Below, one piece after another: positions 19,806 through 55,881 of a DNA stretch of 64,000 nucleotides. Source of the DNA: Melioribacter roseus (GTDB lineage: Bacteria; Bacteroidota; Ignavibacteria; Ignavibacteriales; Melioribacteraceae); assembly GCA_020722065.1 (NCBI GenBank), contig DYLK01000004.1, positions 62,001-126,000 on the forward strand. Reading direction: 5' to 3'. The notes beneath the pieces were generated by a model, which saw only the letters and a list, made by a program, of their open reading frames with translations, was not told where the DNA came from and did not search any database. Positions within the stretch are counted from its first letter, which is position 1. Each line of letters starts with the position of its first letter. Both the position numbers and the translations under genes were made by a program.

Positions 19806-19835
19806 AACCTCGAAGGAACAAGTACCTTCGAGGTT
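19806..19835. repeat. Hairpin flanking the REP-associated transposase (proximal copy)
   Basis: Perfect 11-bp stem AACCTCGAAGG / CCTTCGAGGTT with loop AACAAGTA. Read on the other strand its loop is TACTTGTT, close to TGCTTGCT of the copy at 19202-19231. The stem arms are the two strands of the same 9-mer exchanged. It lies 8 bases from the stop codon of the acyl-CoA dehydrogenase gene. Confidence 0.85.
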
Positions 19836-41166: not shown

Positions 41167-41240
41167 GCTTTTTTTTTATTGCACTCAACTTTAGCTGACT
41201 GATTTGAAAGATGAAAAATTATTTTGCTTTAGCATCATTA
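41167..41240. repeat. Dispersed repeat module 1 (inverted copy at 55659-55730)
   Basis: The minus-strand reading contains AATGATGCTAAAGC, then TCAAATCAGTCAGCTAAAG, then TGCAATAAAAAAA. The same three blocks in the same order are at 55659-55730 on the plus strand. The block around TCAGCTAAAG-TGA is itself a partial palindrome. Confidence 0.8.
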
Positions 41241-41250
41241 TTTTTTTTAT

Positions 41251-41326
41251 GTCATACTGAGCGAAAGCGAAGTATCTTGAAAAATAGATTGATACGGGAA
41301 AGATTCTTCATTTCGCTCAGAATGAC
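41251..41326. repeat. Intergenic imperfect palindrome
   Basis: The left arm GTCATACTGAGCGAAAGCGA (continuing AGTATCTT) is mirrored by the right arm AAGATTCTTC-ATTTCGCTCA-GAATGAC, giving a hairpin of about 26 bp with a few mismatches and a loop of about 20 bases. Elements reading GTCATTCTGAGCGAA are common between genes in Bacteroidota and relatives. No protein is encoded. Confidence 0.8.
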
Positions 41327-41374
41327 AAAATAGTTTGTTCAATTTATTGATTAAGTTTTTTTATTATTTGGTAG

Positions 41375-41394
41375 AACAGACGTCTGCGTCTGTT
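41375..41394. repeat. Palindrome AACAGACG-TCTG-CGTCTGTT
   Basis: An 8-bp perfect stem with a 4-base loop. It is a sister of the GTCAGACG-N4-CGTCTGAC palindromes at 41429, 55421 and 55551. Confidence 0.8.
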
Positions 41395-41428
41395 CATTTG
41401 AATTAACAATTAAATCATCATTTGTTTT

Positions 41429-41514
41429 GTCAGATGAGGACGTCTGACCTACCATTTCACATAATTTTAAACTTAAACTGCTTTTGTCTTTATTTTTTAA
41501 TCTTGAAAATCAAA
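41429..41514. repeat. Dispersed repeat module 2 (inverted copy at 55484-55570)
   Basis: On the minus strand it reads TTTTCAAGATTAAAA, then AAAGACAAAAGCAG, then GAAATGGTAGGTCAGACGTC, ending in the palindrome. The same blocks occur in the same order at 55484-55570 on the plus strand. The palindrome itself (41429-41448) reads GTCAGATG-AGGA-CGTCTGAC, with one stem mismatch. Confidence 0.8.
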
Positions 41515-41574
41515 TAATCTTGTAAATCTTGATTCAGACTTTTCTACTGATTACTTATTACACATCACTGATCA

Positions 41575-42906
41575 CTACTTCATCAAAATCATTTTCTTTG
41601 TTTCAGAAAAACTGCCACTTTGTAATTTGTAGAAATAAATTCCCGAAGGTAATTGATAATTACTAATTGATAATTGATAATTATGCGAGCCAGCGGACAT
41701 TTCTTTATCTATCAAAGTTGCTACTTTTTCTCCAAGTGTGTTGAATAATTCCAATTTAACGTGTGAATCTTGTGGAATGTTAAAATTGATTTGAGTACTT
41801 GGATTAAATGGATTTGGATAATTTTGGAATAATCTAAAATTAGTTGCTTGAGTTTCATTATGAATAGCTGAAGATTGTGATAATTCAGTTGAAGTTGCAA
41901 AATTGACATAATCACTTTCAAACATTGTTAATTCGTTTTGGTTTTCATCGTAAATGTGAATTCCTCCATTAAATTGTGCGGCTAATTTACCATCTTTCAT
42001 TTTTGCAACAATATCGTTCGAAAAAATTCCTTCGCTTTGATATTCAAATTCAAACGTATTATTGTTGATAAGCCCAGAAAGAATCATAAAATTAACATCC
42101 CAACCTGTGCCATAAATTAGCGAATCATTAATTTGAATCAATTTTGTAACCTTTAAATTTACATCAAAATCTAAAGTATCTGTAATTTCATAAGAAGTTG
42201 GATTGATTTTCATTACCGAACCGTAATTTTCATCGCCCGACCAACTTCCCCAACTTGTTGCAAGCAAATTCCCATCGGATAATTTCATAACGTCAGTTGT
42301 GTTTAATCTTACTGGAATTGAGAATTCAATTTGTTCTGTTGTTCTATTAAAAACAGCAACACTATTTCCTACACCAGCATACCAATCTGCCATTGCGATT
42401 GCGACATAATTATCATTAATTTCGCTACTTCCTTGCGGATTTCCTACTACATTTTCAGAGATTGTGTTTGTAATTTCACCCGTTAAGAAATTTACAACTT
42501 GCAACTTGCTTGTTGCTGCCAAAGTTACAACTACTGTAGAATCCGTTAAACCAACAACTGTATAAGCATTTCCGCTATTTTCTAATTCAACAATTGTATT
42601 CTGATTATCAATAACCGAGGTATCCTGAGTTGAAATAAAATCATTAAAAGCGGTGAGTGGAATGATTTCCAAAGTTGTTTGCGGCGAAGAAAATCCGCCA
42701 GAAGTTACAACGAATAAATTATTTTCCCAGATGTATAAATAGTTAGCAAGTGTCCCAAGCGTTTGAATTTGCGGATAATTTTGATTTTCTGTCAAATCAT
42801 ACATTCCTAATTTGTCGCTTGTTAGGTAAAATAATACTTCTCTATTGGTTTGCGAGAAAGTAGTTGTTGCTAAGAATAGCATCAAGACGATTAATTGTTT
42901 TTTCAT
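41575..42906 (-). CDS. T9SS-exported beta-propeller-like protein in the B12 operon
   Basis: Last gene of the cobalamin-riboswitch unit, 443 residues from the ATG at 42906. I chose this start because GGAGA lies just before it; the ATG at 42918 would put that site inside the gene. Signal peptide about 1-19 (MKKQLIVLMLFLATTTFSQ). The middle consists of repeated blade-like stretches (LQVVNFLTGEITNTI, VAVFNRTTEQIEFSIPV, VMKINPTSYEITDTLDF), reminiscent of the BtuG-like lipoprotein encoded next to it. The C-terminus is a type A sorting domain (FRLFQNYPNPFNPSTQINFN). A surface role in corrinoid capture is inferred from operon position. Confidence 0.78.
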   Translation of the reverse strand: MKKQLIVLMLFLATTTFSQTNREVLFYLTSDKLGMYDLTENQNYPQIQTLGTLANYLYIWENNLFVVTSGGFSSPQTTLEIIPLTAFNDFISTQDTSVIDNQNTIVELENSGNAYTVVGLTDSTVVVTLAATSKLQVVNFLTGEITNTISENVVGNPQGSSEINDNYVAIAMADWYAGVGNSVAVFNRTTEQIEFSIPVRLNTTDVMKLSDGNLLATSWGSWSGDENYGSVMKINPTSYEITDTLDFDVNLKVTKLIQINDSLIYGTGWDVNFMILSGLINNNTFEFEYQSEGIFSNDIVAKMKDGKLAAQFNGGIHIYDENQNELTMFESDYVNFATSTELSQSSAIHNETQATNFRLFQNYPNPFNPSTQINFNIPQDSHVKLELFNTLGEKVATLIDKEMSAGSHNYQLSISNYQLPSGIYFYKLQSGSFSETKKMILMK

Positions 42907-42936
42907 ATTTTTCTCCATATTTATTTGTTTAATGAT

Positions 42937-43980
42937 TTATTTATTGATTGATATTCTTGAAATTTTTCCTGGATTTAATCCGCAATTAAATTTTGAAATT
43001 AAATTCCCACTTAAATCAAATTGTAAAACTTGTCCATCTTGCATAAAATCTTTTGGATTTCCCAACCAAATGGAATTTGTCTGCTCGTCGTAATAAATCT
43101 CATAAATTATTCCATTTAACGAGTTTACAGAAAATCCATCAATGAAAATTGAATCTGATATTGTAAAATTTTGCTTGTCTATTTTTAGAATTCCGTTTGA
43201 GTTCACAACAAAAATATTCTCGTCTGTAATTGCAAATTCCCCAGGATTTTGTGGGATAAAAAGTGTGTCTGTTGGTAAAAAAGAAGAATTATCAAATTTG
43301 GTAATTGCTCCAATTCCTTCAGAATCATATTTTCCTGTACTTACAACGTAAATATTTTCCTCATCATTTTGGACAAAACGCGGATTTATCCAAACGGGAA
43401 TTTGACTTACTTCAGAATTTGTTGATAAATTAACAACCGAAAGTGATTTCCCATTCCCAAAACCAGAATTGGCAACTATAATAAAGTTACCGCTTTTTGC
43501 CATTTGTTCGGGTTTTGAGCCGACTTGAATTGCTGAAAGGATTTGCAAGTTTTGTAAATCAATTTTGACTAAAAAATCAGAAGTAGTTGTAACAAAAGCA
43601 GTTAACAAGTCAGTTTGTGTAATAAATCTTGGATTACCGTAATTTGAAAAATCAATAAAACCTTTGCTTTCAAAAGTTTGTAAATCTATAACTTCAACTT
43701 TTCTGGAATAATCTACAACAATAAATCCAACATTTCCAACTTGCAAAAAATCGTTTGCAGTATCGCCCAATAAATCACCATCATTTTGAGATGAATATAA
43801 ATTCTGATAAACTTTTTCATCGGAAATAAATGTTAAAGATGCGTTATTTTGTCCGTATAAACCTTCGTTTATTACCAAAATACCATTTCCAAATTCATCG
43901 GAAACTGGTGGCGTATGTTCATTTTCAGAACAAGAAATAATAAAAAATAGTGCAAAAAGTAAAATAATTTTTTTCATCAT
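42937..43980 (-). CDS. BtuG-like surface lipoprotein (beta-propeller, corrinoid capture)
   Basis: A 347-residue lipoprotein: the leader MMKKIILLFALFFIISCSEN has a lipobox ending at Cys17. The body is a YncE/DUF5074-type propeller starting GNGILVINEGLYGQNNASLT, with blades such as VEVIDLQTFESKGFIDF, FLVKIDLQNLQILSAIQVG and LSVVNLSTNSEVSQIPVW. BtuG of Bacteroides has this plan, starts with a similar NEG-x-GNA-type segment, binds cobalamin tightly on the cell surface and caps BtuB. The gene overlaps the TonB-dependent receptor gene by 4 bases, under a cobalamin riboswitch. Function is therefore well supported by context, though not tested. Confidence 0.82.
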   Translation of the reverse strand: MMKKIILLFALFFIISCSENEHTPPVSDEFGNGILVINEGLYGQNNASLTFISDEKVYQNLYSSQNDGDLLGDTANDFLQVGNVGFIVVDYSRKVEVIDLQTFESKGFIDFSNYGNPRFITQTDLLTAFVTTTSDFLVKIDLQNLQILSAIQVGSKPEQMAKSGNFIIVANSGFGNGKSLSVVNLSTNSEVSQIPVWINPRFVQNDEENIYVVSTGKYDSEGIGAITKFDNSSFLPTDTLFIPQNPGEFAITDENIFVVNSNGILKIDKQNFTISDSIFIDGFSVNSLNGIIYEIYYDEQTNSIWLGNPKDFMQDGQVLQFDLSGNLISKFNCGLNPGKISRISINK

Positions 43981-46088
43981 AATGTCATTTTATATGTAAA
44001 AGTAAAACTTCTTAGCGGCATTGGATAAGATTGAATTATCAAATAATTCTCGTTAGTTAGATTTTCAATAGCAAACGAAAGAGAATTTTGTGTAGAATAA
44101 AGATTGAATTGGTAAGCTAAGTTTAAGTCAAAAATATTGTAAAAGGGAATTTTGTAAATCGGATTATTATCTGTTGTGTAGAATTTTTCTGATGAAAATT
44201 GATGGAAAAGGGAAGCCGAAAACCCATTCCATCGAGCATTTATTCCACTTTTTAGATTGTGTAAAGATGAATAAAGAAGTTGCTTATTGTAAGAATTATC
44301 ATCTTGAGATTGTGCTGAAATATTCCGAGCGTCAGTGTAACTATAAATAAAATAAGAAGTTAAATTGTTTTTGAAAATTGGAATATTCAAGTTTAATTCA
44401 AATCCATTTGTGATGGTTTTTTTTACATTTTTTGGAATTTGCAATGCAAGTCGAGTTGGGACCCAAATAATTTTATTATTTCCAAAGATGTTGAAAATCT
44501 CGAAATTTGCAGTAAAAAGTTCGGAATTGTAGTTCAGTCCAACAAGAATTTGCGAATAATTTTCGGGCAATAATTTAGAATTTGAAAAAGTTGTTGAATA
44601 GTATAATTCTGTAAAATTTGGCAAACGGAAACTATCAGAATAGTGAAATAAAAAACTAAAATTTTTCATATTCTTAAACGAAAAATTAGTCTTTACATCT
44701 TTTGAAAAGTAATTTTGCCAAGAATTGTCAATAATTTCATTTTTAACAAATTGAGAATTAATTTCTGCCGAAATCTGCAATGAATTAAAAATTGAAAATT
44801 CATCACAAGTGTAAAATGGTCTCAGATATAATGAAAATTCACTTTTGGTTGCGGAGTATAAATTATCAAGATATTCCAACGCAATTGGCGAAGAATTCTG
44901 TAGTTTGCCGAAAAGGAAATTCTCACCAAAATTCAATTTAAGATTTCCAAAACTGAAAGAATTGCGATTTTGAATAGAAAAATTATTCAGTTTTGCTGTT
45001 TGTTCAAGTTGATTTGTTAGAATTTCTTCATTCGGGTCGAGTAATTTCAAAATCTGAAACTGATAGCCAGAATGTATTTCAGAATGAAAAAAACTTGAAA
45101 AATTATGGGTCAAATTGATAGTTGCAAGTAGATTCCTATTTTCATTTCTTGCTGCAGACGATTGATTATTTGTTACAACAAATCCAGGCAAACCACTTTT
45201 AAAATCATTAAAATGGATATAAAATTTGGCGTAAGTTTTTATATCTAAATAACTTAAAGAAGAATACAGAAGAGTTTTAGAAAAATCTGCATTTTCTCTT
45301 GAATACAATTTTTCATCAAAAATAAAGGAATATTTGTTTGGAGAATAACTACGATTAAAACCAAAATTCGCAGAAAAATTATTAAAAGAAACTGAATAGT
45401 TGGCAAAAAGAGAATTTAATTTATCAGAAGAAATTGAACTTCCCAATTCAAATTTGTTAGAATCGGCAAAATTTTTTGTAGAAAGATTCAAAATTCCGCC
45501 AGCAGCCGAAAATCCATTAGAATTTCCGTTTGTAATTTCAATATTTTCAATAACTTGTGGTGAAATTTGAGAAAAGTCAAAACTCCCACTTCGCAAATCG
45601 TTAATTTGTGCTTCGTTGAACAAAACTAAAAAATTATCGCTAGTTAAACCTCGACGAAAAATCGTTGAAAAAGCATTTTCGCCACCACTTTTTATAAATA
45701 TAAAAGACGTATTTTGAGATAGAATATCGTCAATTCCAAAGTTGTAAATAGTTGAAAGATTGGACAAATTGATGTTTTTCTTCTCATCTGAATTAGAAAG
45801 AACCAAAACAGTATCCAATTGGAAATGTTTTTCTTTCAGATGTAAAATGTTACCGATTTTTGATTTCTGAATTGTAGTATCAACAAAATTAATATGCGAA
45901 AAAGATATCGAATCATTTTCAGAAAACTTTGATAAATCAACGATCCCATTCTCGTTGGAAATAGAATAAGTTGTTTTATTAAAAGCATTTACAGAACTAA
46001 TTGGCTTATTGAAATTATCTAAGATGTGAACGTTCTGTGAAAATACTTCACTGAAAATCATCAACAATATCACAAAAAATAATCTCAA
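43977..46088 (-). CDS. btuB: TonB-dependent outer-membrane receptor (BtuB-like, corrinoid uptake)
   Basis: A 703-residue receptor with signal peptide (about 1-17) and a short carboxypeptidase-like domain (NKPISSVNAFNKTTYSISNE). The plug follows at about 105-210, with STIFRRGLTSDNFLVLFNEA, IENIEITNGNSNGFSAAGGI and LNLSTKNF. The remainder is a 22-strand-type barrel ending in aromatic FTFTYKMTL. A cobalamin riboswitch upstream and the BtuG-like neighbour give the substrate. It overlaps both neighbouring genes by 4 bases. Inner-membrane BtuCDF genes are not in the window. The symbol is by role; sequence alone would only give a TonB receptor. Confidence 0.85.
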   Translation of the reverse strand: MRLFFVILLMIFSEVFSQNVHILDNFNKPISSVNAFNKTTYSISNENGIVDLSKFSENDSISFSHINFVDTTIQKSKIGNILHLKEKHFQLDTVLVLSNSDEKKNINLSNLSTIYNFGIDDILSQNTSFIFIKSGGENAFSTIFRRGLTSDNFLVLFNEAQINDLRSGSFDFSQISPQVIENIEITNGNSNGFSAAGGILNLSTKNFADSNKFELGSSISSDKLNSLFANYSVSFNNFSANFGFNRSYSPNKYSFIFDEKLYSRENADFSKTLLYSSLSYLDIKTYAKFYIHFNDFKSGLPGFVVTNNQSSAARNENRNLLATINLTHNFSSFFHSEIHSGYQFQILKLLDPNEEILTNQLEQTAKLNNFSIQNRNSFSFGNLKLNFGENFLFGKLQNSSPIALEYLDNLYSATKSEFSLYLRPFYTCDEFSIFNSLQISAEINSQFVKNEIIDNSWQNYFSKDVKTNFSFKNMKNFSFLFHYSDSFRLPNFTELYYSTTFSNSKLLPENYSQILVGLNYNSELFTANFEIFNIFGNNKIIWVPTRLALQIPKNVKKTITNGFELNLNIPIFKNNLTSYFIYSYTDARNISAQSQDDNSYNKQLLYSSLHNLKSGINARWNGFSASLFHQFSSEKFYTTDNNPIYKIPFYNIFDLNLAYQFNLYSTQNSLSFAIENLTNENYLIIQSYPMPLRSFTFTYKMTL

Positions 46089-47026
46089 TTTATCACCAAA
46101 AATTTCTTTGTTATTGTTTGGTGATTAGCTAAAAACTGGACAAAATAAATTCCAGTTGATAAAAAATTTGGCTTAAAATTTACTTCGTTAAAATTTTGAT
46201 GAATTTGAATTTTTTCATCTGAAATAATTTCCCCAAGAATGTTAAAAATTCTAATATGACAAGAAAAATTGTTTTTAGAGAGAATTTCCACATTAATCGA
46301 ATTTCCTTTTTTAACTGGATTTGGGTAAATATCGCCGAGTTCAAATTGCTCAACTTGATTTGAAGTATTTTGAATGTTAACAAATTCTGGACTTACGATT
46401 GCAATTCCGTCCAAATCGAAACCATTTATAGTAAAGTCATAAAATGGATGCGAAGTGTCAGATTTAATAATTTCACAAACATCTGTGATTTTGATAAAGC
46501 GTGCGGAATCCAAACCAATTTCGGCTAAATCGAAAGAATCGCCGCCTGAAACAAAAGGATTTGTTGGATTTTGATTACCAAAAGTGGGAGTTTTGCCCGC
46601 CAAACCTTCAAGAGTAAGTGAGTCAAAAGGGAATTCGTAAAATGTTATTCCGTCGTAACTTGCGGCAACTTTTGCGGGCTCGGCAAAATATTCACCAGCC
46701 CTAATTCCAAATTGAATTTTGAAAACATTCTCGAAAATGGTAAAATCTTTTCCAGGTAAATCTATTATTGGATTTTGCGAAAAGCCGAGTATAATTTCGC
46801 CATTTAATCCAAGTGAACAAATTTCATCAGGCGAAACTTCGGGTATAAATTCAGTTGCAATTGTGCTTGTTTCACCTAAAACATTGTTTGGGAAATAAGG
46901 TTGCGATTGGTTACTGAAATTCCCGATTCCAAACGAAACAGAATCCACAAAATCTGGGAAAAAGTTTTGTTGAGGAAAAATTTCAGTTCCCAATAGAAAC
47001 AAAATATAAAAAAATAGTTTTTTCAT
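46085..47026 (-). CDS. T9SS-exported surface protein, first gene of the B12 operon
   Basis: A 313-residue secreted protein, starting at the ATG at 47026 (a TTG one codon earlier is possible). Signal peptide about 1-19. The body has a pattern I know from B12-associated secreted proteins but cannot name as a Pfam family: GEIILGFSQNPIIDLPGKDF, TIFENVFKIQF, GITFYEFPFDSLTLEGLAGK, DSFDLAEIGLDSARFIKITD. It looks like a compact jelly-roll type domain. The C-terminus (about 235-313) is a type A sorting domain (LGDIYPNPVKKGNSINVEIL). As first gene behind the riboswitch and coupled to the receptor, it is a candidate corrinoid-binding or delivery protein. Confidence 0.75.
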   Translation of the reverse strand: MKKLFFYILFLLGTEIFPQQNFFPDFVDSVSFGIGNFSNQSQPYFPNNVLGETSTIATEFIPEVSPDEICSLGLNGEIILGFSQNPIIDLPGKDFTIFENVFKIQFGIRAGEYFAEPAKVAASYDGITFYEFPFDSLTLEGLAGKTPTFGNQNPTNPFVSGGDSFDLAEIGLDSARFIKITDVCEIIKSDTSHPFYDFTINGFDLDGIAIVSPEFVNIQNTSNQVEQFELGDIYPNPVKKGNSINVEILSKNNFSCHIRIFNILGEIISDEKIQIHQNFNEVNFKPNFLSTGIYFVQFLANHQTITKKFLVIN

Positions 47027-47134
47027 CAAAGTTTAATGTTTAATAATAAAGTTTGATGATTTCTTAAAAAGGGATTATTGTAAGGAAATAAATAGGAATG
47101 AAAAGACGAAGGCTATGAATCATCTTTAAATTGC

Positions 47135-47157
47135 TAAAAACCTTTCCCGCGAAGGTT
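47135..47157 (-). terminator. Terminator-like hairpin below the cobalamin riboswitch
   Basis: Read on the minus strand: AACCTT-CGCGGGA-AAGGTT followed by TTTAG, a 6-bp stem with U-rich tail just downstream of the aptamer. It probably serves as the expression platform, ending transcription when cobalamin is bound. Only the hairpin is seen; the switching is inferred. Confidence 0.55.
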
Positions 47158-47169
47158 AATCGACTTTTC

Positions 47170-47316
47170 TACGGCAGGTCTCCTGGCTTAGGATAATTGA
47201 TTTTAACGCCTTCCCATTCCCAAAAGAACAGTGGCAAAATGTTAAAAATAAATCCATTACAGTTGCGGGGCAGCATCGGATTTTCACCGATTTCCCATAT
47301 TAAGAAATCACCGTAA
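47170..47316 (-). promoter_or_regulatory. Cobalamin (B12) riboswitch
   Basis: Read on the minus strand the conserved segments occur in the right order: the P1 5' side TTTTACGG, then GGGAAATCGGTG, then GCTGCCCCGCAACTGTAA, then GCCACTG, GGGAAGGCG, and the B12 box AAGCCAGGAGACCTGCC at 47173-47189, followed by GTAGAAAA closing P1. This is the class I cobalamin aptamer. It precedes a four-gene operon with a TonB-dependent receptor and a BtuG-like lipoprotein, so it lowers corrinoid uptake when cobalamin is plentiful. Confidence 0.95.
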
Positions 47317-47372
47317 AAATAATTTCAGAGAACTTGTACTAATATAAATTAAAAAGTCGAAATGATAAAAAA

Positions 47373-47990
47373 TTATTCAAAATAAGTCGGCGAATCTGGA
47401 TTGGCAATGTGTTTTAGAATTTCGTTGATATGTTTTTGATTTGTTCTAAATTCCGAAAATTCAGGTAAATTGTTAAAATCAAAGAATTTAACATCTAAAG
47501 TTTCGTTGCTTGGTCTTGGTGAACCACCAATAATTTTACATAAATAGACAATTTTCACCGCATGGAAAAAATCTAAATTTCGTCCTGTTCGATTGGCATC
47601 AAAAACGCCAATCACTTTTAGAACTTCAACATTATAGCCACTTTCTTCGAAAACTTCGCGAATTGCTGCTTTTGCGGGATAATCTCCAACATCAGCCCAG
47701 CCGCCAGGCATCGCCCATTTTCCATCAGTATTTTCTTGAACTAACAATATTGTCCCGTGTTCAATAATTGCTGCTCGAACATCAACTTTGGGAGTGGCGT
47801 ATCCTTTTTGTGTGAGAAAAATTCTTTCGATTTCGTTTTTATCTAAATCAGAATTCTGTTCGACCATTTCAGAAGCAATTTGCAAAAGTTTTTTATTTCG
47901 CTCTATTTCATATTCGTTTTCTGAAAAAGCTAACCCTGTTTGAGCAGATGCTTGTATTTTACGAGCCCAATTCAATAATTTTTCATTCAT
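47373..47990 (-). CDS. NUDIX hydrolase (YjhB-like, with N-terminal helical domain)
   Basis: Hydrolyses a nucleoside diphosphate linked to another group. The product is 205 residues from the ATG at 47990; a TTG at 48005 would add five residues, but MNEKLLNWARKIQASAQTGL is the usual N-terminus of the NUDIX_N_2 domain. The Nudix box is GWADVGDYPAKAAIREVFEE followed by SGY, with Asp in place of the first Glu, as common in this subgroup. PGGW before the box is also typical. Substrate unknown. It is divergent from the leader of the epimerase-like gene. Confidence 0.88.
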   Translation of the reverse strand: MNEKLLNWARKIQASAQTGLAFSENEYEIERNKKLLQIASEMVEQNSDLDKNEIERIFLTQKGYATPKVDVRAAIIEHGTILLVQENTDGKWAMPGGWADVGDYPAKAAIREVFEESGYNVEVLKVIGVFDANRTGRNLDFFHAVKIVYLCKIIGGSPRPSNETLDVKFFDFNNLPEFSEFRTNQKHINEILKHIANPDSPTYFE

Positions 47991-48042
47991 TTGCAAAACT
48001 TTCAATTTTTTTTAAATATTTAAACTTTTTTTTAATATTATA

Positions 48043-48190
48043 TTGCCAAAGCTATTAAATATTATTAAGTTTACACAACAAAAAAATAAGAATACTCCTC
48101 AAAACCATAAAGACCTCATAGCACTCCTTATTGTGAATGCAAAAAAGCCAGCTCCCCCCAAAGCTGGCTTTTTTTATTTAGGAGAAAATA
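48043..48190 (+). ncRNA. Possible attenuated leader or small RNA ending in a terminator
   Basis: Between the divergent NUDIX gene and the ATG at 48191 there are about 150 bases ending in a strong hairpin. The upstream part has AATAAGAATACTCCT and ACTCCTTATT, which could pair weakly. An 8-codon-plus frame exists here but runs through the hairpin, so I do not call it coding. The arrangement suits either a short terminated RNA or a leader controlling the next gene. Confidence 0.35.
48141..48176 (+). terminator. Strong intrinsic terminator just before the TIGR01777 gene
   Basis: AAAAAAGCCAGCT / AGCTGGCTTTTTTT, a 13-bp stem around an 8-base loop CCCCCCAA, with a run of T. It ends only about 14 bases before the start codon and next to the ribosome site AGGAGAA, so it must affect expression of the downstream gene. 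Confidence 0.85.
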
Positions 48191-49102
48191 ATGAAAAAAA
48201 TATTAATATTTGGCGGAAGCGGATTTATTGGAAAATATCTTTCCAACTATTTTTCTAATAACTATAAAGTATATGTTTTTTCAAGAAGTCTTCATTATCC
48301 CAAAGGAAATATTGAATATGTTATTTGGAATGAAAACACTCCGAATGATGAATTACGAGAAATCGTAAATGGAGCATATACAGTAATAAATCTGGTTGGA
48401 GAAAATATTAACACAATTTTTACTGAAGAAAAAAAGAGACTAATTATTTCTTCTCGTGTGAATTCTGTAAAACGAATTTATGAACTGATTTCTTCTGTAG
48501 AAATTCCACCAGAATACTGGCTTCAAGCAAGCGCAATTGGTTATTATGGAAATAGTTTTTCTGAGATTTATGATGAGAATTCAGAAAAAGGGAAAGGTTT
48601 TTTAGCGGATGTTTGTGATTTGTGGGAAAAGGAATTCAGAAAAATTGAATTGCAAATCACCAAAAAAGCAATTATTAGGATTGGAAATGTGCTTGGGAAT
48701 GATGGAGGAATGTTTCCACCGCTAAAATTTATTACAAGATTATTTTTAGGCGGTTCATCAGGGAATGGAAAACATTTCGTTAGTTGGATACATATTACTG
48801 ACTTAGTGAGAATTTTTGATTTCTTAATTTCCGAGAAAAAAGAAGGCGTTTTCAATGCTGTAAGTCCAAATTTTGTCTCGAATAAAGAATTTATGTCTGC
48901 TTTAAGAAAAGCAATGAATAGACCTTTTTCGCCTCCAGTCCCTAAATTATTATTAAAATATATGTCATATTTAATTGGGACAGATTTTGAGCTAATTTTT
49001 GCAAGTTCAAAAGTTTATCCCAAGAATTTAATTGACAATGGTTTTATGTTCAATTTCCCTAATTTGCAAGAATCTTTGCATAATCTGATAAAAAAAGTTT
49101 AA
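48191..49102 (+). CDS. TIGR01777 family NAD(P)-binding epimerase-like protein (YfcH/SulA-like)
   Basis: A 303-residue extended SDR protein. N-terminal nucleotide loop: MKKILIFGGSGFIGKYLSNY. Family landmarks follow: VINLVGENI, YWLQASAIGYYGN, KAIIRIGNVLGNDGGMFPPL, and KHFVSWIHITDLVRIFDFL, FNAVSPNFVSNKEF. Members are about 295-305 residues; their reaction is not established, though some bacterial and plant members influence division. The ATG at 48191 follows GGAGAAAATA. It is preceded directly by a strong hairpin, which is odd for a gene start. Confidence 0.85.
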   Translation: MKKILIFGGSGFIGKYLSNYFSNNYKVYVFSRSLHYPKGNIEYVIWNENTPNDELREIVNGAYTVINLVGENINTIFTEEKKRLIISSRVNSVKRIYELISSVEIPPEYWLQASAIGYYGNSFSEIYDENSEKGKGFLADVCDLWEKEFRKIELQITKKAIIRIGNVLGNDGGMFPPLKFITRLFLGGSSGNGKHFVSWIHITDLVRIFDFLISEKKEGVFNAVSPNFVSNKEFMSALRKAMNRPFSPPVPKLLLKYMSYLIGTDFELIFASSKVYPKNLIDNGFMFNFPNLQESLHNLIKKV

Positions 49103-49200
49103 GATTAAAGAAATAAAAATGATAATTGAACTTGCTTTATATTATTGATATTTTATCTAATATTAAATAAATAATGAATGATTAAAATTAAGGATTGTTT

Positions 49201-50067
49201 ATGAAAAACAATGTATCAAACTTTATAATTAATGCAAAAGCAGTTAAAATTCTCATTTTACTTATAGTTTTCTCTTTTTCTGACATTCTGGCACAAGATT
49301 CCATTTCCGTTATGAGTTTTAATATTCGTTATGGCTTGGCAAATGACGGCGAAAATAGTTGGCAATTTCGCAATAAATTTGTTTTTGATGTAATTAAGAC
49401 AAATAATCCCGATTTGATTGGTTTGCAAGAAGCACTTTTCTTCCAAGTGGAAGAGATTTTGAATCAATTTCCAGGATATAAAATGATTGGAGTTGGTCGG
49501 GATGATGGGAAATTGGCTGGTGAATTATCTTGTATTTTATATAAATCTGATAAATTTTCGGTTGACACAAGTTCAACTTTTTGGTTTTCTGATACGCCCG
49601 AAATTCCAGGTTCGCGACATTGGGGAAATAATTACAATAGAATTTGTACTTGGGGAAAATTTCAATTGAAAAATTCGGATAAATCTTTTTATTACTACAA
49701 CTTACATCTCGATCACGAATCTGAAATTGCACGAGAAAAGAGTGTTGATTTGCTAATTCAGAAAATTGGAGATTTGAAAAAAGCTAATCCGATAATAATT
49801 TCTGGTGATTTCAATTGCGGTGAATCAAGTGTTCCAATTCAAATTATTTTGAAAGAATTCCGCGACACATTCCGACTTGTAAATTCCAAACAAGAAAATG
49901 AAGGGACATTTAATGGCTTTACTGGAGATATTTCAGGCGAGCGAATTGATTATATATTAATAAATAATTTATTTGAGACAAAAAAAGCTGAAATCATCAG
50001 AACAAATTATGAAGGGAAATTCCCATCAGACCATTTCCCTATTTCCTCACAAATTATTTTAAAATAA
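49201..50067 (+). CDS. Exported endonuclease/exonuclease/phosphatase-fold hydrolase
   Basis: A 288-residue secreted hydrolase, started at the ATG at 49201 because AAGGA lies six bases upstream; a TTG at 49195 is less likely. Signal peptide about 1-31. EEP fold motifs: VMSFNIRYGLANDGENSW, NPDLIGLQEAL (metal-binding Glu), YYYNLHLDHES (His), IISGDFNCG (Asp and Asn), and the final FPSDHFPISSQI (Asp-His). The FNIRYG plus SDHFP pattern is that of the exported EEP hydrolases found next to sugar-use genes in Bacteroidota. Target, phosphodiester or phosphomonoester, is not evident. Confidence 0.85.
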   Translation: MKNNVSNFIINAKAVKILILLIVFSFSDILAQDSISVMSFNIRYGLANDGENSWQFRNKFVFDVIKTNNPDLIGLQEALFFQVEEILNQFPGYKMIGVGRDDGKLAGELSCILYKSDKFSVDTSSTFWFSDTPEIPGSRHWGNNYNRICTWGKFQLKNSDKSFYYYNLHLDHESEIAREKSVDLLIQKIGDLKKANPIIISGDFNCGESSVPIQIILKEFRDTFRLVNSKQENEGTFNGFTGDISGERIDYILINNLFETKKAEIIRTNYEGKFPSDHFPISSQIILK

Positions 50068-50103
50068 AAAAAGGATATTGCTTTTTAACAATATCCTTTT
50101 TCT
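50064..50103. terminator. Bidirectional terminator between convergent genes
   Basis: AAAAAGGATATTG / CAATATCCTTTTT, a 13-bp perfect stem with an 8-base loop. A-rich and T-rich flanks let it work for both the EEP hydrolase (plus) and the ferredoxin gene (minus). Confidence 0.85.
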
Positions 50104-50119
50104 CAAAGTTAAGAATGAA

Positions 50120-50404
50120 TTATTGTATAACTTTTTTAACTGATAATTCTTCTTTTGTTTCAACATGATCTGGGTCTGGGACGCAGCATGAAACTGGACA
50201 AACAGAAGCACATTGAGGTTCATCGTGGAAGCCAACGCATTCAGTACATTTGCTAGGTACAATATAGAAATGATCTTCACTTATTGGGGTAAAAGAATTT
50301 CCACCACTTTGCCATTCTGCTCCACCTTCGTAAATAGCAGTATTAGGACATTCTGGTTCGCAAGCACCACAATTGATGCATTCGTCTGTGATCATAATAG
50401 CCAT
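50120..50404 (-). CDS. 2[4Fe-4S] ferredoxin of the Allochromatium/YfhL type
   Basis: A small electron carrier of 94 residues. First cluster ligands C9-x2-C12-x2-C15-x3-C19 ([13 protein letters not shown]). The second motif has an insertion: C53-x2-C56-x8-C65-x3-C69 ([19 protein letters not shown]), the mark of Alvin-type ferredoxins also common in Chlorobi. A C-terminal helix of about 20 residues follows. The ATG at 50404 follows AAGGAGC. Its start overlaps the end of the DUF309 gene by 13 bases. Partner unknown. Confidence 0.93.
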
Positions 50405-50772
50405 GAGATTGCTCCTTTATTTTGTTGTAATTTTATTACTGGAATTATCGCATAATTCACAGTTTTTGTTTTAGTATTTAGTTGAATTTTAATTTCTGTT
50501 TCAAATATATTGATATCAGACAATAATTGAGTAAGATTAATTTCCATATAGTCTGGTAAATATTGCAATAGTTTAGTTTTAGCTTTTTCAAGTTGACTTA
50601 AACTGCCACTAAAATTTCCAGAAACAAAGTGAAAGCAACTTACTGAAAGTTGAGTTAATCCTTGAAAAAAATTTCTATTCTTAGATTCAGCAGAATGCCA
50701 AAGATCTTCAAAAAAATCATGTGCGGCGAAATAATCACCGTCATTGAATATTTTTATTCCTTTTAATATCAC
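50392..50772 (-). CDS. DUF309 domain protein
   Basis: A 126-residue protein with the DUF309 helical core: [17 protein letters not shown], then [20 protein letters not shown]. The HDxxEDLW and QGLxQL features are typical of the family, whose function is not known. The start is a GTG at 50772, since the nearby ATG is out of frame. It overlaps the ferredoxin gene by 13 bases, so both are expressed together. The tail after about residue 95 is unlike the family. Confidence 0.75.
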
Positions 50773-50819
50773 ATCAAAATATAATTATTTCATTTAAATG
50801 AGACAATCTTATTGAAATA

Positions 50820-50848
50820 AAAAATCCCGCATAGTTGAGCGGGATTTT
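50820..50848 (-). terminator. Intrinsic terminator after hsp20
   Basis: On the minus strand AATAAAATCCCGC-TCAACTAT-GCGGGATTTTT: a stem of about 10 bp with a T-run, 50 bases downstream of the hsp20 stop. Confidence 0.8.
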
Positions 50849-50896
50849 ATTAGGAAGTTTTAGGGAAATCTATATACAAATTGTTATTCCCTCTTT

Positions 50897-51349
50897 TTAA
50901 TTTATTTTAACTTCAATTTCTTTTGGCTTTACTTCCTCAGCCTTTGGAATTTCAATTGTTAATGTACCATCTTTAAACTCAGCTTTAATTTGATCTTCAA
51001 CTATCTTTTCTGGCAAATTGAAAGCACGATAGTATTTGCCATTTAATCTTTCAACTCTGTGATAAGTAGCATTCTTTTCCTCGGAAACTGATTTTCTTTC
51101 ACCGTTAATAATTAGTTGATTATTTACGAATTTAATTTTGACATCTTCTTTGCCTATTCCAGGTAAATCAAGATGTAAGACAAATTTATCATCGTATTCA
51201 ACAATATCAGTTGCTGGTGACCAGACTGAGTTTTCAATTTCAGATTCGCTTTCAGATGCAAATCTGTCGTTAAACAAATTGAACCATTTTGCAATTTCTT
51301 TTTCAGCGTTCCAAATTTGTTTTACTGGGTTAATTCTAACTAGTGTCAT
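50897..51349 (-). CDS. Small heat-shock protein, Hsp20/alpha-crystallin family
   Basis: An ATP-independent holdase of 150 residues. The alpha-crystallin domain (about 45-140) has WSPATDIVEYDDKFVLHLDL, PGIGKEDVKIKFVNNQLIIN and GKYYRAFNLPEKI-type strands. A C-terminal extension with EVKPKEIEVKIN contains the IxV-like motif region. The ATG at 51349 follows AAAGGAGAT. It is monocistronic, with its own terminator. No CIRCE element was found upstream. Confidence 0.93.
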   Translation of the reverse strand: MTLVRINPVKQIWNAEKEIAKWFNLFNDRFASESESEIENSVWSPATDIVEYDDKFVLHLDLPGIGKEDVKIKFVNNQLIINGERKSVSEEKNATYHRVERLNGKYYRAFNLPEKIVEDQIKAEFKDGTLTIEIPKAEEVKPKEIEVKIN

Positions 51350-51491
51350 TTTATATCTCCTTTTTGTTTTTTTAGTTAATTGTTTTATAATTATTTGTTT
51401 TGGTAATATTAATCTAAAAATTGTGCCAAAAAGTTATTAAACAGCTAAGTTATTATAATACAATATTTTAATTCTGAAAATTGTTTAATAA

Positions 51492-51570
51492 AGTAAAAAT
51501 TTTACTAGGTAAACTACTGCCAGATTTTCAGAATATTTGAAAATTAAACAAAATATTTGCCAGATTTTCA
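51492..51570. promoter_or_regulatory. Palindrome and 13-bp direct repeat upstream of hsp20
   Basis: AGTAAAA-A-TTTTACT at 51492-51506 is a 15-base palindrome. TGCCAGATTTTCA occurs at 51518-51530 and again at 51558-51570, starts 40 bases apart, close to four helical turns. They lie 140-220 bases upstream of the hsp20 start and downstream of kup. A binding site is possible; nothing more can be said. Confidence 0.3.
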
Positions 51571-51626
51571 TATTTGGGAAGAAAATCATGTCCTCATGTT
51601 CAAATCAATTAATTTTCAATATTCTA

Positions 51627-53465
51627 TTATATTTCAATGCGAGTGTAAACACCGTGTAACTTCTGATAAGGTAATTCCATAAATTGAACAAAGTTTGGAG
51701 TTAGCCTTTTTATAATTGAATAGATTTTTAATAATGGTTGGTTTGCTTTAATATCATCAACTCCGTAAAACATTACTTTTGGCTCAATATTGCATTCTTT
51801 CAATATTTTTGGGACATCAACTCTTTCCATATAGCCAAATTTAATTTCCAAACCCGAAAGTCCTTTGGCAAGATTTGGTATCATTTTATATTCAATTCCG
51901 CGTGAAGTTTCGGTTGTTGCAACTGATACAAGCACATTGTTTTCGTAAATTATTCCACTTCGGATTGTGCTATGTACCATATACGGAGGAATCATATTAA
52001 GACTTTTTGCAAAAAATAATGCAGTACCTGGTAAAGTTTTTCCAGTATTATAAATTTGTTCAAAACTTAATGAGTAAATATCTAATGAAAGTGGACGGAA
52101 TGATTTGTAAACAGATTTATTACCTTTTGACCAAATGTAAATTATGATAAAAGGAACAATTCCAATTATAATAGACCAATAACCACCGTGAGGAATCTTT
52201 GTAAATACTGCAAATAAAAACATTAAGTTAACAACAAAAACTGCGAGAGCTGTTACAAATTTTATCCATGATTTTTGATTTTTGAAAATCCAAATCATAA
52301 AAATTGTACTCATTGCCATCGTAATAGTAACGGCAAAACCATAAGCTGCGGCAAGGTTTGCTGATTCTCTGAATAATAATATTATGAAAATAACTGCAAG
52401 GAGCATTGCCCAATTAACAGAATTAATATAAATCTGTGATTTTAATTTTGAGGAAGTATAGGTAACTCGTAATAGCGGAAAGATATATGTTCTAATTCCT
52501 TGGTAAATTAACGAAAAGATGGCGCTAATCATTGCTTGAGATGCAATTATTGTTGCAAGTAAAGTAATTAGTAAAAATGGAATATAAAAGTAAGGTTGAA
52601 TGTGATTTACCATTCCAAATAAAATATTTGATGTTGTTTCCTTTTCTGATGATAATAAAATTGCAAACGAACCTTGTCCGAAATAGTTAATTATCAAAGC
52701 AATAAAAACAAAATACCAAGCTCTAACTATTGGTTTTTTGCCTAAATGTCCCATATCAGCATACAATGCTTCGCCACCAGTAGCACTTAAAATCACTTCT
52801 GAAAGAACAATAAAGCCAATAAATCCATTATTACTTAAAAATTTAATTGCTTCATAAGGATTTATTGCCCAAAGAATTTGGGGATTTTCAAATAATGAAA
52901 TTATTCCAAAAATGAATAAAGAACCAAACCACAAAACCATAATTGGTCCGAATGATGTTGCAACTTTATCTGTTCCTTTAGATTGAATAGAAAATAGAAC
53001 AATTGTAATAATTATTGTAACAAAAATTACTTGATTAGTAGGAATATCTGAGAAATTAGGAATAAATTTCAGACCTTCAACTGCTGATAGTATTGAAATT
53101 GCTGGAGTAATTACGCCATCTCCAATTAAAAATGACACGCCAATAAATCCCATATATGCAATAATTATACTTTTTCTGCCTTTTTTCACATAACTATGCA
53201 ATATTTCCTTCAATACAATGATTCCGCCTTCTCCATTTGAATTGAGACTCATTGCTAAAAATGTATATTCAATAGTTACAAGTATAACCATAGTCCAAAA
53301 CAATAATGAAAGAACGCCGTAAACATTTTCAACAGTGATTGGCAAAACCAGAAAGACAACAGTCATAGTGTAAATTGGACTTGTTCCAATGTCGCCAAAT
53401 ACAAGTCCCATTGCTTTTATTATTTCAGAAATTCTTTCGCGATTTGTTCTATCAGATTTTTTCAT
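51627..53465 (-). CDS. kup: Kup-family potassium uptake transporter
   Basis: Proton-coupled K+ importer, 612 residues from the ATG at 53465; a TTG at 53474 would add three. About 12 membrane segments occupy residues 15-450. Family points: MGLVFGDIGTSPIYTMTVVF near the N-terminus, NSNGEGGIIVLKEIL, LIGDGVITPAISILSAVEGL, and ATGGEALYADMGHLGKKPI. A cytoplasmic C-terminal domain (about 460-612) ends the protein. Length agrees with E. coli Kup (622). It lies 119 bases after the glucose-6-phosphate isomerase gene on the same strand; no terminator separates them. Confidence 0.95.
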   Translation of the reverse strand: MKKSDRTNRERISEIIKAMGLVFGDIGTSPIYTMTVVFLVLPITVENVYGVLSLLFWTMVILVTIEYTFLAMSLNSNGEGGIIVLKEILHSYVKKGRKSIIIAYMGFIGVSFLIGDGVITPAISILSAVEGLKFIPNFSDIPTNQVIFVTIIITIVLFSIQSKGTDKVATSFGPIMVLWFGSLFIFGIISLFENPQILWAINPYEAIKFLSNNGFIGFIVLSEVILSATGGEALYADMGHLGKKPIVRAWYFVFIALIINYFGQGSFAILLSSEKETTSNILFGMVNHIQPYFYIPFLLITLLATIIASQAMISAIFSLIYQGIRTYIFPLLRVTYTSSKLKSQIYINSVNWAMLLAVIFIILLFRESANLAAAYGFAVTITMAMSTIFMIWIFKNQKSWIKFVTALAVFVVNLMFLFAVFTKIPHGGYWSIIIGIVPFIIIYIWSKGNKSVYKSFRPLSLDIYSLSFEQIYNTGKTLPGTALFFAKSLNMIPPYMVHSTIRSGIIYENNVLVSVATTETSRGIEYKMIPNLAKGLSGLEIKFGYMERVDVPKILKECNIEPKVMFYGVDDIKANQPLLKIYSIIKRLTPNFVQFMELPYQKLHGVYTRIEI

Positions 53466-53583
53466 TTTTATCAAAAGTAAGTTAAAGATTTTTATAAACC
53501 AATATCAAGCAATAACGAGACAAAATAAGGTAATAAATTTAGAGCCGAAAAATATCAATAAAATATATTTTACGGCTATTGAA

Positions 53584-55290
53584 TTAAATCAATTGTTTTA
53601 ATGATTCGATAAATTTTATCAAAGTTGAATTAATTTCACATCGAATAACTTGTCGATTGTTAGATAAAAGAGCTGCTCTATCACCCAAAGATTGAGCTTG
53701 AACGAGAATATCGAATGAAATATCTGATTTGCTTTCTGTTGCATTTTGGGGAATTGCGATATTTTCTGAAGGAAAATCAACGATTTGAATAAAAATTCCA
53801 TTCCCCGAATCACCTTTGTGTAGTTGTCCTGTTGAATGCAAGAATCGTGGTCCAAAACCACTTGTTACAGCAATTTTATATTTTTCAGATAGATAATTTT
53901 GAAAATCAACCAAAATTGCTTGATTTTCCTTTGTCTGAGGTATAAATGCTTGAATTGAAATATAAGGTCTTCCGAAAACTTGTTCGGTCGGGATTGAATT
54001 AAGTTGACTTTCGAGTTCTTCGAATATTTGCGTTGTTGTATGAAATTTTTCTTCTTCAGTGACTCGAACATTAAAATTATGAGATTCAAGCAGTTTCCCA
54101 CCGAAAACAAGTTGATGCGTTTCAGCATAATTTTTTAGCACATTTCTCGCAGCAATTTTTGCCGATTCAACATTGGGTTGGTCAAAAGGATGAATTTGGA
54201 GAATATGCCCGATAATTGCTGTTGACATTTCCCACAAAAAGAAAAGTGAACCAAGTTCGTAAGTATTTTCAATTGAAACTTCTACAACATTAAAACCACA
54301 GCGAACAAAATCTTTCATTTCAAGAATTAGTTTTTCATCATTTCCAAATCTTAGGAATACAAAAAGTCTATCTTTTGAATATGTTTCAGTTTTACGAATT
54401 TCTTCCAAATCAATTGGTAGAACACCATTTCCAATTTTTCCAGTGCTTTCAGCAACAAGTTGTTCAATCCAAGCTCCGATTGCTTTTAGTTGATTTGATG
54501 GATAAAGAGTGAGTTTGTCGATTCCTTTTTTTGCTTGCAACCCGATAATTCCGCCAAGCAATAAAGCCGAGTTTGAAATTGACTGATTCTCGATTAATTC
54601 CCTTTTGAACGATAAAGTTGTTTCAAGTAATTTTTTTATATCAACGCCAACTAAAGCTGCTGGTACTAATCCAAAGAATGAAAGTGCCGAAAATCTTCCG
54701 CCAATGTTTGGATTATTCAAGAATATTTTGCGAAAACCTAATTCTTCGGCAAGTTTCTGAAGTTCACTATTTGGGTCAGTTATTGCAGCAAAAAGATTCC
54801 CTGCAGGTTTTTCTTCTTTTATCAATTGATAATAAAAATATTTCGCAAGAGAAAGTGTTTCTACTGTTCCGCCAGATTTTGTTGAGACAAGAAAAAGAGT
54901 TTTATGATTTTTGATTTTGTTTTCGATATTTCTTATGGCAGTTGGGTGTGTTGAATCTGCAATAATTAATTCTAAAAAAGATTCATTTTTACCAAATATT
55001 TTTTGATAAACTTCGGGAGCTAAACTTGAGCCGCCCATTCCAATAAGTACGACAAATTGAAACTTTTCTTTAACAATTTCATCAACAAAATTCTGAATTA
55101 TATCAATTTTTAGAAGATATTCATCAACAGAAATCAGCCAATCTAATCTGTTTGTAATTTCAGTTTCTGAACTGCTCCAAACTGTGTAATCTTTTTCAAA
55201 TATTCGATTTAATATATTATTATCAACAAGGTGTTGAATTTGAGAATCAAATTTTGCGTGATCTTCGTGAAGAAATTTTACAATTTCCAT
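53584..55290 (-). CDS. pgi: Glucose-6-phosphate isomerase, type found fused to transaldolase
   Basis: Interconverts glucose 6-phosphate and fructose 6-phosphate. The 568-residue protein has VVLIGMGGSSLAPEVYQKIF, STKSGGTVETLSLAKYF, IGGRFSALSFFGLVPAALVG, and the C-terminal IHPFDQPNVESAK and GFGPRFLHSTGQLHKGDSGN. The last segments match the isomerase half of bifunctional transaldolase/isomerases (about 950 residues) more than E. coli Pgi; here the transaldolase half is absent. The ATG at 55290 follows AAAGGAAAG. It supports the glycogen and glucan genes of the window. Confidence 0.9.
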   Translation of the reverse strand: MEIVKFLHEDHAKFDSQIQHLVDNNILNRIFEKDYTVWSSSETEITNRLDWLISVDEYLLKIDIIQNFVDEIVKEKFQFVVLIGMGGSSLAPEVYQKIFGKNESFLELIIADSTHPTAIRNIENKIKNHKTLFLVSTKSGGTVETLSLAKYFYYQLIKEEKPAGNLFAAITDPNSELQKLAEELGFRKIFLNNPNIGGRFSALSFFGLVPAALVGVDIKKLLETTLSFKRELIENQSISNSALLLGGIIGLQAKKGIDKLTLYPSNQLKAIGAWIEQLVAESTGKIGNGVLPIDLEEIRKTETYSKDRLFVFLRFGNDEKLILEMKDFVRCGFNVVEVSIENTYELGSLFFLWEMSTAIIGHILQIHPFDQPNVESAKIAARNVLKNYAETHQLVFGGKLLESHNFNVRVTEEEKFHTTTQIFEELESQLNSIPTEQVFGRPYISIQAFIPQTKENQAILVDFQNYLSEKYKIAVTSGFGPRFLHSTGQLHKGDSGNGIFIQIVDFPSENIAIPQNATESKSDISFDILVQAQSLGDRAALLSNNRQVIRCEINSTLIKFIESLKQLI

Positions 55291-55420
55291 TTATCTTTCC
55301 TTTGAATTTGTTTATTCAAATTTAAGTAAAAATACAATCATCAATTTCAAGTTTTTTGTCATTATCCTAATCAGTGAGCAGTAATCAGTAATGAGTGAAG
55401 GATTGGATAATTGATTTCGG

Positions 55421-55440
55421 GTCAGACGTCCTCGTCTGAC
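55421..55440. repeat. Palindrome GTCAGACG-TCCT-CGTCTGAC
   Basis: An 8-bp perfect stem with loop TCCT. The same stem with loop TCCC is at 55551-55570, and imperfect copies lie at 41429-41448 and 41375-41394. Confidence 0.85.
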
Positions 55441-55483
55441 AATTGAAAATTCAAGATGTTTGAACTATGATTTATCTGATTAT

Positions 55484-55570
55484 TGGATTTTCAAGATTAA
55501 AACACAAAGACAAAAGCAGCTTAAGATTATGAAATTAGCTGAAATGGTAGGTCAGACGTCCCCGTCTGAC
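55484..55570. repeat. Dispersed repeat module 2 (plus-strand copy)
   Basis: TTTTCAAGATTAAAA, AAAGACAAAAGCAG and GAAATGGTAGGTCAGACGTC occur in order, as in the minus-strand reading of 41429-41514. It ends with the palindrome GTCAGACG-TCCC-CGTCTGAC at 55551-55570. Confidence 0.8.
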
Positions 55571-55590
55571 AATTGAAAATTAAAATATTG

Positions 55591-55610
55591 CAGTTCACTT
55601 TAGTGAACTG
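55591..55610. repeat. Palindrome CAGTTCACT-TT-AGTGAACTG
   Basis: A 9-bp perfect stem with a 2-base loop. It lies between repeat modules 2 and 1, where the 41-kb copy instead has the AACAGACG and GTCAT palindromes. Confidence 0.8.
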
Positions 55611-55658
55611 ATAAAGAAATTAATAATATAATTGGCTTCAGCCACATAAATAAATCTC

Positions 55659-55730
55659 AAATGATGCTAAAGCATAATTATTTATAATCATTCAAATCAG
55701 TCAGCTAAAGCTGACTGCAATAAAAAAAGC
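55659..55730. repeat. Dispersed repeat module 1 (plus-strand copy)
   Basis: AAATGATGCTAAAGCA, then TCAAATCAGTCAGCTAAAG, then CTGACTGCAATAAAAAAAGC. It contains the perfect palindromic core GTCAGCT-AA-AGCTGAC and matches 41167-41240 inverted. Confidence 0.8.
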
Positions 55731-55754: not shown

Positions 55755-55789
55755 AAGATGAACTCCACCTTTAAGGTGGAGTTCATCTT
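55755..55789. repeat. Long perfect hairpin, 16-bp stem
   Basis: AAGATGAACTCCACCT pairs perfectly with AGGTGGAGTTCATCTT around loop TTA. No T-run of terminator type follows on either strand. It is probably another intergenic palindrome family rather than a terminator. Confidence 0.8.
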
Positions 55790-55856
55790 AAATTTACAAA
55801 TTAAAGAGATTCCCGATAGAAACATTCGGGCATGACAACTTTTTTTATTTTGTCTT

Positions 55857-55881
55857 CCTTCGAGGTACTAGTTCTTAGAAG
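55857..55881. repeat. Degenerate copy of the transposase-associated hairpin
   Basis: CCTTCGAGGTACTAGTTCTT continuing AGAAG aligns with CCTTCGAGGTGCTTGCTCCT continuing CGAAGG of 19205-19229. The left arm is intact and the right arm decayed. Confidence 0.6.

Follow-up and report, generated by a model that had tools for sequence, protein, structure and literature searches.

Two described systems come closest to the repeats considered here. In the archaeon Haloquadratum walsbyi, small mobile repeats preferentially target the palindromes of palindrome-associated transposable elements (PATEs), giving nests, and deletions of the core leave copies with termini only (as related in the available text of PMC3119063); the other system is that of repetitive extragenic palindromes (REPs) and REP doublets forming hairpins (REPINs) with their REP-associated tyrosine transposases (RAYT, TnpA_REP; PMC3733652, PMC6006769). 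For TnpA_Y1 subclass 1.2, the available text of Quentin et al. 2018 (PMC6006769) reports transposases generally without typical terminal IS200 structures, gives no REP for them, and holds them to be without the insertion sequence (IS) properties of subclass 1.1. We examined two intergenic nests of palindromes, near 41 and 55 kb of a 64,000-nucleotide stretch of Melioribacter roseus DNA (assembly GCA_020722065.1, contig DYLK01000004.1, positions 62,001 to 126,000; the window). It is likely, in our judgement, that each of the two nests is an accumulation of non-autonomous mobile units from several families, formed by the mechanism set out below. In what follows C numbers denote contigs of the genome that contains the window (2.38 Mb, 69 contigs), G numbers genomes and L numbers loci.

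Both nests lie between genes on the same strand. The 41-kb nest has the order M2-A-N-I-DE-X, where M2 is apparently one end region of an inverted-repeat element like those flanking some GxxExxY genes (41467..41543, minus strand); A is a GTAG-tagged palindrome of REP type (GGTAGGTCAGACGTCCTCATCTGAC; 41427..41453, minus); N is a second GTAG-tagged palindrome (GGTAGAACAGACGTCTGCGTCTGTT; 41370..41400, plus); I is a long GTCATTCTGAGC...GAATCT palindrome with an inverted copy (41251..41327, minus); DE is a solo copy of the right-end double hairpin of a unit named B-C-D-E (41171..41239, minus); and X is a dispersed 49-nt module, also seen between M2 and BC at C22 and C7 (41121..41169, minus). The 55-kb nest has the order A-M2-A-BC-DE-G-F-H, all on the plus strand: a first copy of A without a complete GGTAG foot (55420..55445), M2 (55455..55545), a second A with the GGTAG foot (55546..55574), the left-end double hairpin BC (CAGTTCACTTTAGTGAACTG + GGCTTCAGCCACAT; 55586..55656), the right-end double hairpin DE (ATGATGCTAAAGC + CAGTCAGCTAAAGCTGACTGCAAT; 55660..55727), the AGATGAACTCCACC..GGTGGAGTTCATCT palindrome G (55756..55789), the AGATTCCCGATAGAAACATTCGGGCATGAC palindrome F (55805..55836), and H, a decayed copy of the palindrome flanking the resident Y1 transposase gene (55855..55881).

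An earlier note on this DNA had described the nests as sharing modules in inverted orientation with different interiors, and three inverted segment pairs bear this out: DE (41171-41239/55660-55728, 69 nt, 90% identity), M2 (41468-41539/55458-55529, 72 nt, 83%) and the GTAG palindrome A (41427-41467/55532-55572, 41 nt, 90%). The spacing from A to DE also agrees with the first description, being about 187 bp in the 41-kb nest and about 85 bp in the 55-kb nest. Chance matching was excluded by a whole-genome search with the 55-kb nest as query, which recovered the 41-kb pieces at E = 3.7e-29 and 3.4e-20, and the further genomic copies that were looked for were found (47 matches to the 55-kb nest at E <= 10 and 66 to the 41-kb nest at E <= 1, both nests counted in). 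The frame M2-A-...-DE is indeed conserved; its extent was drawn too narrowly, the frame being larger and taking in X at 41 kb and, at 55 kb, another A together with G, F and part of an H. The CAGTTCACT palindrome inside the 55-kb nest (BC), taken by the note for content distinct from its "module 1" (DE), is actually the opposite end of the same unit, the two being the ends of one B-C-D-E unit of about 145 bp.

The nature of this unit was indicated by relatives of the same family, where the composite matches adjoin Y1_Tnp genes. In Stygiobacter electus and other relatives there is a gene-bearing form in which an HUH transposase gene sits exactly between C and D; at L078 (S. electus) and L079 (Melioribacteraceae metagenome-assembled genome SKW230) the order is B-C-ATG...stop-D-E, and gene-less B-C-D-E copies flank the gene on both sides, head to tail, with the other modules absent around it. 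The window BC is identical to the S. electus left end at 63 of 68 positions and ends 1 nt from the ATG; the window DE matches the right end at 50 of 64 positions, 1 nt from the stop. When ends were compared at 14 of 29 loci, left ends matched at p <= 0.01 in 12 of the 14 and right ends in 7, a count that includes L266, where an early stop cut the frame and the right end was not truly tested. The hairpins covary. Sequence similarity was the sole criterion by which 16 copies from four genomes were chosen; in these, 98.4% of the 383 cells were paired and 9 of 24 pairs had changed on both sides; the covariation score of 0.224 (0.072 when shuffled) was reached by 0 of 500 shuffles, and slid controls gave 14-36%. 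The inner stem of C was invariant, and the covariation evidence therefore rests on B, D and E. An earlier count, on 13 copies from seven genomes, had 98.1% of cells paired and two-sided changes in 14 of 24 pairs; it was set aside because its copies had been picked by perfect outer stems, which favours pairing, and omitted two imperfectly paired copies of the genome itself (at C10 and C11).

The exact gene-less B-C-D-E pattern was present in 6 of 75 genomes. Six matches, on six contigs, lie in the window's genome; G059, G065 and G068 have 3, 3 and 4 matches, each less than 3 kb from a transposase gene on the same contig, and G072 and G073 have 2 each. The same exact pattern gave 0 matches in four genus-mates, two of which are 77 and 85% complete. 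A search for a subclass 1.2 transposase gene in the window's genome found none, there being a single Y1_Tnp match, which is class 2-like; the window units are for this reason regarded as non-autonomous. From the absence of the pattern in the genus-mates, together with this single Y1_Tnp of another class, B-C-D-E probably arrived late in this lineage and its mover was lost or is unassembled.

The subclass 1.2 signature (HUH, Y---Q--HH) was found in 71 of 81 classified Y1 genes of the family, L078 and L079 included (91 loci were given, mostly the best-scoring, and 11 yielded no classified gene), and the L078 gene matches the NF033573 IS200 transposase at E = 1.5e-19. Beside 66 distinct subclass-1.2 genes, hairpins significant at p <= 0.05 against mononucleotide shuffles were found upstream in 47, downstream in 49 and on both sides in 37; among control genes the corresponding numbers were 4, 2 and 0 for the 34 window genes, and 6, 4 and 0 for the 71 GxxExxY genes. 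The inner hairpin GGCTTTAGCCACAT stands before the ATG in many of the 29 loci from which the 14 compared ones were taken, those of Bacteroidetes among them.

M2 looks like the ends found at some nuclease genes of the GxxExxY (PDDEXK_3) kind. A hidden Markov model (HMM) of M2 gave matches in inverted orientation on both sides of such a gene in the window's genome (L149, at C53; E = 3.8e-5 and 0.0025), and others around the GxxExxY gene of L105 in G036 (E = 1e-6 and 0.0046). From 81 loci given, 72 usable genes were obtained and one identical protein was removed, leaving 71; GTCTGAA-like ends of the M2 kind were seen at 4 of these, with single-flank alignments to M2 that were uneven (p 0.002-0.85). 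The upstream flank matched the reverse-complemented downstream flank in 52 of the 71 at p <= 0.01 and in 58 at p <= 0.05 (200 mononucleotide shuffles), compared with 0 and 2 of 34 window genes, controls that represent one AT-rich genome; 42 of the 71 exceeded the 95% level of cross-gene pairs. This set supersedes a first test in which 23 of 35 loci lay above the shuffled 99% level. The same inverted-flank test on 69 subclass-1.2 genes gave 31 at p <= 0.01. The GxxExxY flanks are periodic at lag 9 (match 0.366 upstream and 0.357 downstream, vs 0.24-0.33 at other lags), and those of window genes are flat.

Two further observations concern these genes. At L144 (C4 of the same genome), 3' of a GxxExxY gene, there is a gene-less inverted-repeat copy (AACACGGATTACACTGACAACACAG... 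/ ...TCCGTGTAATCAGTGTCGTCCGTGTTC) with similar ends, which is a second candidate miniature inverted-repeat transposable element (MITE) of the GxxExxY family. At L142, L145 and L146, in three genus-mate species, a GxxExxY gene with related inverted flanks stands at what seems to be the same site before a MVTQLKGKHFLTTDDW gene, presumably ornithine carbamoyltransferase-like; this is perhaps an old shared insertion. We put forward only tentatively, and with more doubt than belief, that there is an undescribed class of small mobile element built around GxxExxY genes, in which one nuclease gene of about 130 aa would lie between inverted arrays of a motif of about 9-11 bp (GATT, ACACGGATT and CGCAAAG types), and whose gene-less offspring, M2 included, would serve as landing sites for HUH-type hairpin elements.

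Palindrome H has a resident partner. The only Y1_Tnp gene detected in the genome (19235..19795, minus strand; 186 aa, class 2-like motif YILKNP) has an H palindrome upstream (19806..19835, minus) and another downstream (19202..19231, minus); with these inverted palindromes on both sides of the gene, and 12 matches in the scanned part of the genome, H has the features of a REP and is presumed to be that of the resident enzyme. At L121 (G075:C58, a genus-mate) a 185-aa homologue of the resident Y1 is flanked by diverged H (AACCTTGAAGG...CCTTCAAGGTT), so that gene and palindrome change together between the two. The resident transposase was also considered as mover of all modules and was rejected, as its own palindrome is H and strict patterns of A/N, F, G and I were found at 0 of 120 Y1 loci (these loci include the same gene repeatedly and are drawn from two collections). 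A and N look like GTAG-tagged REPs, each having a GTAG foot and a hairpin, with 28 matches to A in the same scan; the GTAG of E. coli REPs was used only as a lead. A search for A copies beside a RAYT gene found CAGACG..CGTCTG at 0 of the 120 Y1 loci and the looser GTAG..CAGACG pattern at 3, and strict patterns gave no partner gene for A, N, F, G or I at the 120 Y1 plus 82 GxxExxY loci. F and I share the feet GTCATTC...GAATCT.

Twelve modules were scanned over 187 kb of the genome's own sequence, drawn largely around hits. This gave 54 nests, 34 of them with at least two modules; besides the counts for A and H there were 16 I, 15 BC, 15 M2L, 14 G, 14 DE, 13 M2c, 10 F, 5 M2R, 5 X and 4 N, among which some short matches may be due to chance. 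Certain orders occur repeatedly: A-BC-DE, which G and F may or may not follow, at C10, C11, C2, C50 and C56:117k, and in an expanded form with M2 and X in between at C22; M2L-H-M2R-A-I at C22:41k and C46, with parts at C15 and C59; and A-N-G at C37, C48 and C53. Halves of the B-C-D-E unit occur alone, DE at C41, at C56:34443 and in the 41-kb nest, and BC at C13 and C7, in each case on a contig long enough to reveal the other half.

Palindromic units come and go at shared sites, as seen by comparison with the sister species G077, which is 89-94% identical around C22. At site 1 the genome has A-M2-X-BC-DE-G-F, whereas G077 has M2 and then an F-like palindrome, without B-C-D-E (the G077 contig begins just left of M2, so that A is not assessable there). 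At site 2, contiguous in both, the genome has a two-ended M2 element with H inside, followed by A and I; G077 has only the M2 left end and an F-like palindrome, H, A and I being absent. Differences of a single unit may reflect loss in G077. The gap in G077 orthologous to the 55-kb nest is a run of N characters, the flanks of the 41-kb nest are on two separate contigs, and one G077 site of an M2 nest corresponds to a break in the present assembly (end of C59, start of C58). The suggestion of the earlier note that units insert and replace one another at fixed sites was thus upheld in so far as units differ at orthologous sites and composite orders recur.

Homologous recombination or gene conversion among dispersed repeats could, instead of transposition, have spread and reshuffled the modules, the transposases being long gone. 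The multi-family blocks do share spacer sequence, and for 19 of the 54 nests a contig end is no more than 400 bp away, the repeats at these places having been long and similar enough to break the assembly. Recombination does not account, however, for how B-C-D-E first reached this species, the only one with it out of five genomes of the genus, or for the copies at sites without any other scanned module (C13, C56:34443); we consider it unlikely. Less probable again is a single composite element, in which the frame A-M2-A-BC-DE-G-F would move as a block and later decay or swap its interior. The recurrence of A-BC-DE at five contigs, expanded at C22, is in keeping with such a block, as are the 91-95% identity of four copies to the window over about 180-190 nt and the left border of A-BC-DE-G-F, which falls at the GGTAG foot of A and beyond which the compared copies are unrelated; yet BC and DE also occur alone and without the frame, M2, H, A and I stand in other orders, relatives carry B-C-D-E arrays around a transposase without other modules, and site 1 of the sister species lacks B-C-D-E next to its M2 and F-like palindrome. 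A single mobilised composite is not supported, and the "composite element" of the earlier note does not hold as one element, its modules coming from separate families that each have a partner gene of their own (BC/DE, M2, H). A role of the nests as functional RNA or as chromosomal structures kept by host selection (terminators, mRNA stabilisers or nucleoid sites), with the repeats incidental, would agree with their strong hairpins, compensatory changes and position between same-strand genes, and is very improbable given that no Rfam family was matched at the nests at gathering thresholds, that the exact B-C-D-E pattern was not found in four genus-mates, and that in relatives the hairpins that covary delimit transposase genes.

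Under the reading of the nests as pile-ups of units from several families, the mechanism would be as follows. B-C-D-E would be MITE-like, having arisen by internal deletion from an IS200-type element that encodes a TnpA with the subclass 1.2 signature; two hairpins make up either end (B+C left, D+E right), with tnpA between C and D in the gene-bearing form. We infer that an HUH/tyrosine transposase supplied in trans recognises the structured ends in single-stranded DNA, cuts the unit out and inserts it at another site, and that solo halves such as DE at 41 kb come from deletion of the core or from one end moving alone. M2 would mark the end of another type of unit, whose inverted ends, rich in GATT, resemble those flanking some GxxExxY genes and which the GxxExxY nuclease would move or copy. 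Two of the minitransposon kinds are probably moved by enzymes whose genes are carried by relatives. A/N would be GTAG-type REPs whose transposase was not found here, and H the REP of the resident class 2-like Y1. As units land in or beside one another, intergenic sites would keep their frame (M2-A-...-DE) while their contents differ, and some composites (A-BC-DE-G-F) would be copied as blocks, by co-mobilisation or by homologous recombination.

Several points weigh against this reading. Transposition, target duplication and exact junctions were not shown, the putative unit borders being read from alignments, and since the window's genome yielded no subclass 1.2 gene, the evidence for the mover comes from relatives. 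Of the 14 loci compared, only 7 had a matching right end, and 29 of the 66 subclass-1.2 genes were without a significant hairpin on one or both sides. The four genomes used for covariation are related, so that cells are not independent events, and stem C does not vary. The search for B-C-D-E required an exact match to the pattern, and the genomes of two genus-mates reach only 77 and 85% completeness; the nest map was built from hits (187 kb of 2.38 Mb), which biases adjacency counts; only two sites were comparable with the sister species, one of them at the start of a G077 contig; and the link of M2 to GxxExxY is based on a handful of loci, with uneven single-flank alignments.

Two features of the window lie apart from these subjects. 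Beside the 55-kb nest is an open reading frame (ORF) of 2405 aa (55980-63197, minus strand) that contains direct repeats of 300 nt (76%) at a distance of 1248 bp. At gathering thresholds, Rfam matched no family in the whole window except a cobalamin riboswitch at 47156-47330 (minus strand, 112.7 bits), upstream of the minus-strand ORF 46085-47029.

As to what these results mean, the nests suggest why such genomes break into contigs at intergenic sites. Both gene links are tied to specific loci and substrates (for subclass 1.2, those of Stygiobacter electus) and can hence be tested at the bench; neither the pairing of BC/DE with subclass 1.2 nor that of M2 with GxxExxY was found described in the papers searched. 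The GxxExxY gene at C53 is a member of the PF13366/TIGR04256 family (match to TIGR04256, E = 3.6e-39), and no paper on repeats flanking GxxExxY, PF13366, PDDEXK_3 or TIGR04256 genes, or on their mobility, was found in the open-licence literature; this little-studied nuclease family is now linked to periodic inverted repeats.

Compared with TnpA_Y1 subclass 1.2 as described in the available text of PMC6006769, the present genes share the length of about 148 aa, HUH, WQ and Y---Q--HH, the few copies per genome and the distribution in Cyanobacteria and Bacteroidetes; they differ in having hairpin ends and gene-less derivatives, so that enzymes published as generally having neither gain a hairpin substrate and gene-less offspring. 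With REPs, REPINs and their RAYT/TnpA_REP genes (as far as the available texts of PMC3733652 and PMC6006769 go) the nests share the GTAG foot and hairpin of A/N, the flanking of a class 2-like Y1 by H, and, in B-C-D-E, an inverted pair of structured ends; B-C-D-E differs in its feet, ATTGCAG/CTGCAAT in place of GTAG, and in a partner gene of class 1.2 (Y---Q--HH) and not class 2 (Y---NP; PMC6006769). The PATEs of H. walsbyi (available text of PMC3119063) are likewise gene-less, have palindromic near-termini like those of IS605-type transposons, leave terminal-only copies and nest; they belong to an archaeon, whereas the units here have two hairpins per end, a subclass 1.2 partner and a distribution in Melioribacteraceae and relatives. 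Nested insertion of palindromic elements thus has a precedent in H. walsbyi, and by analogy the present nests would have been built likewise, with other families.

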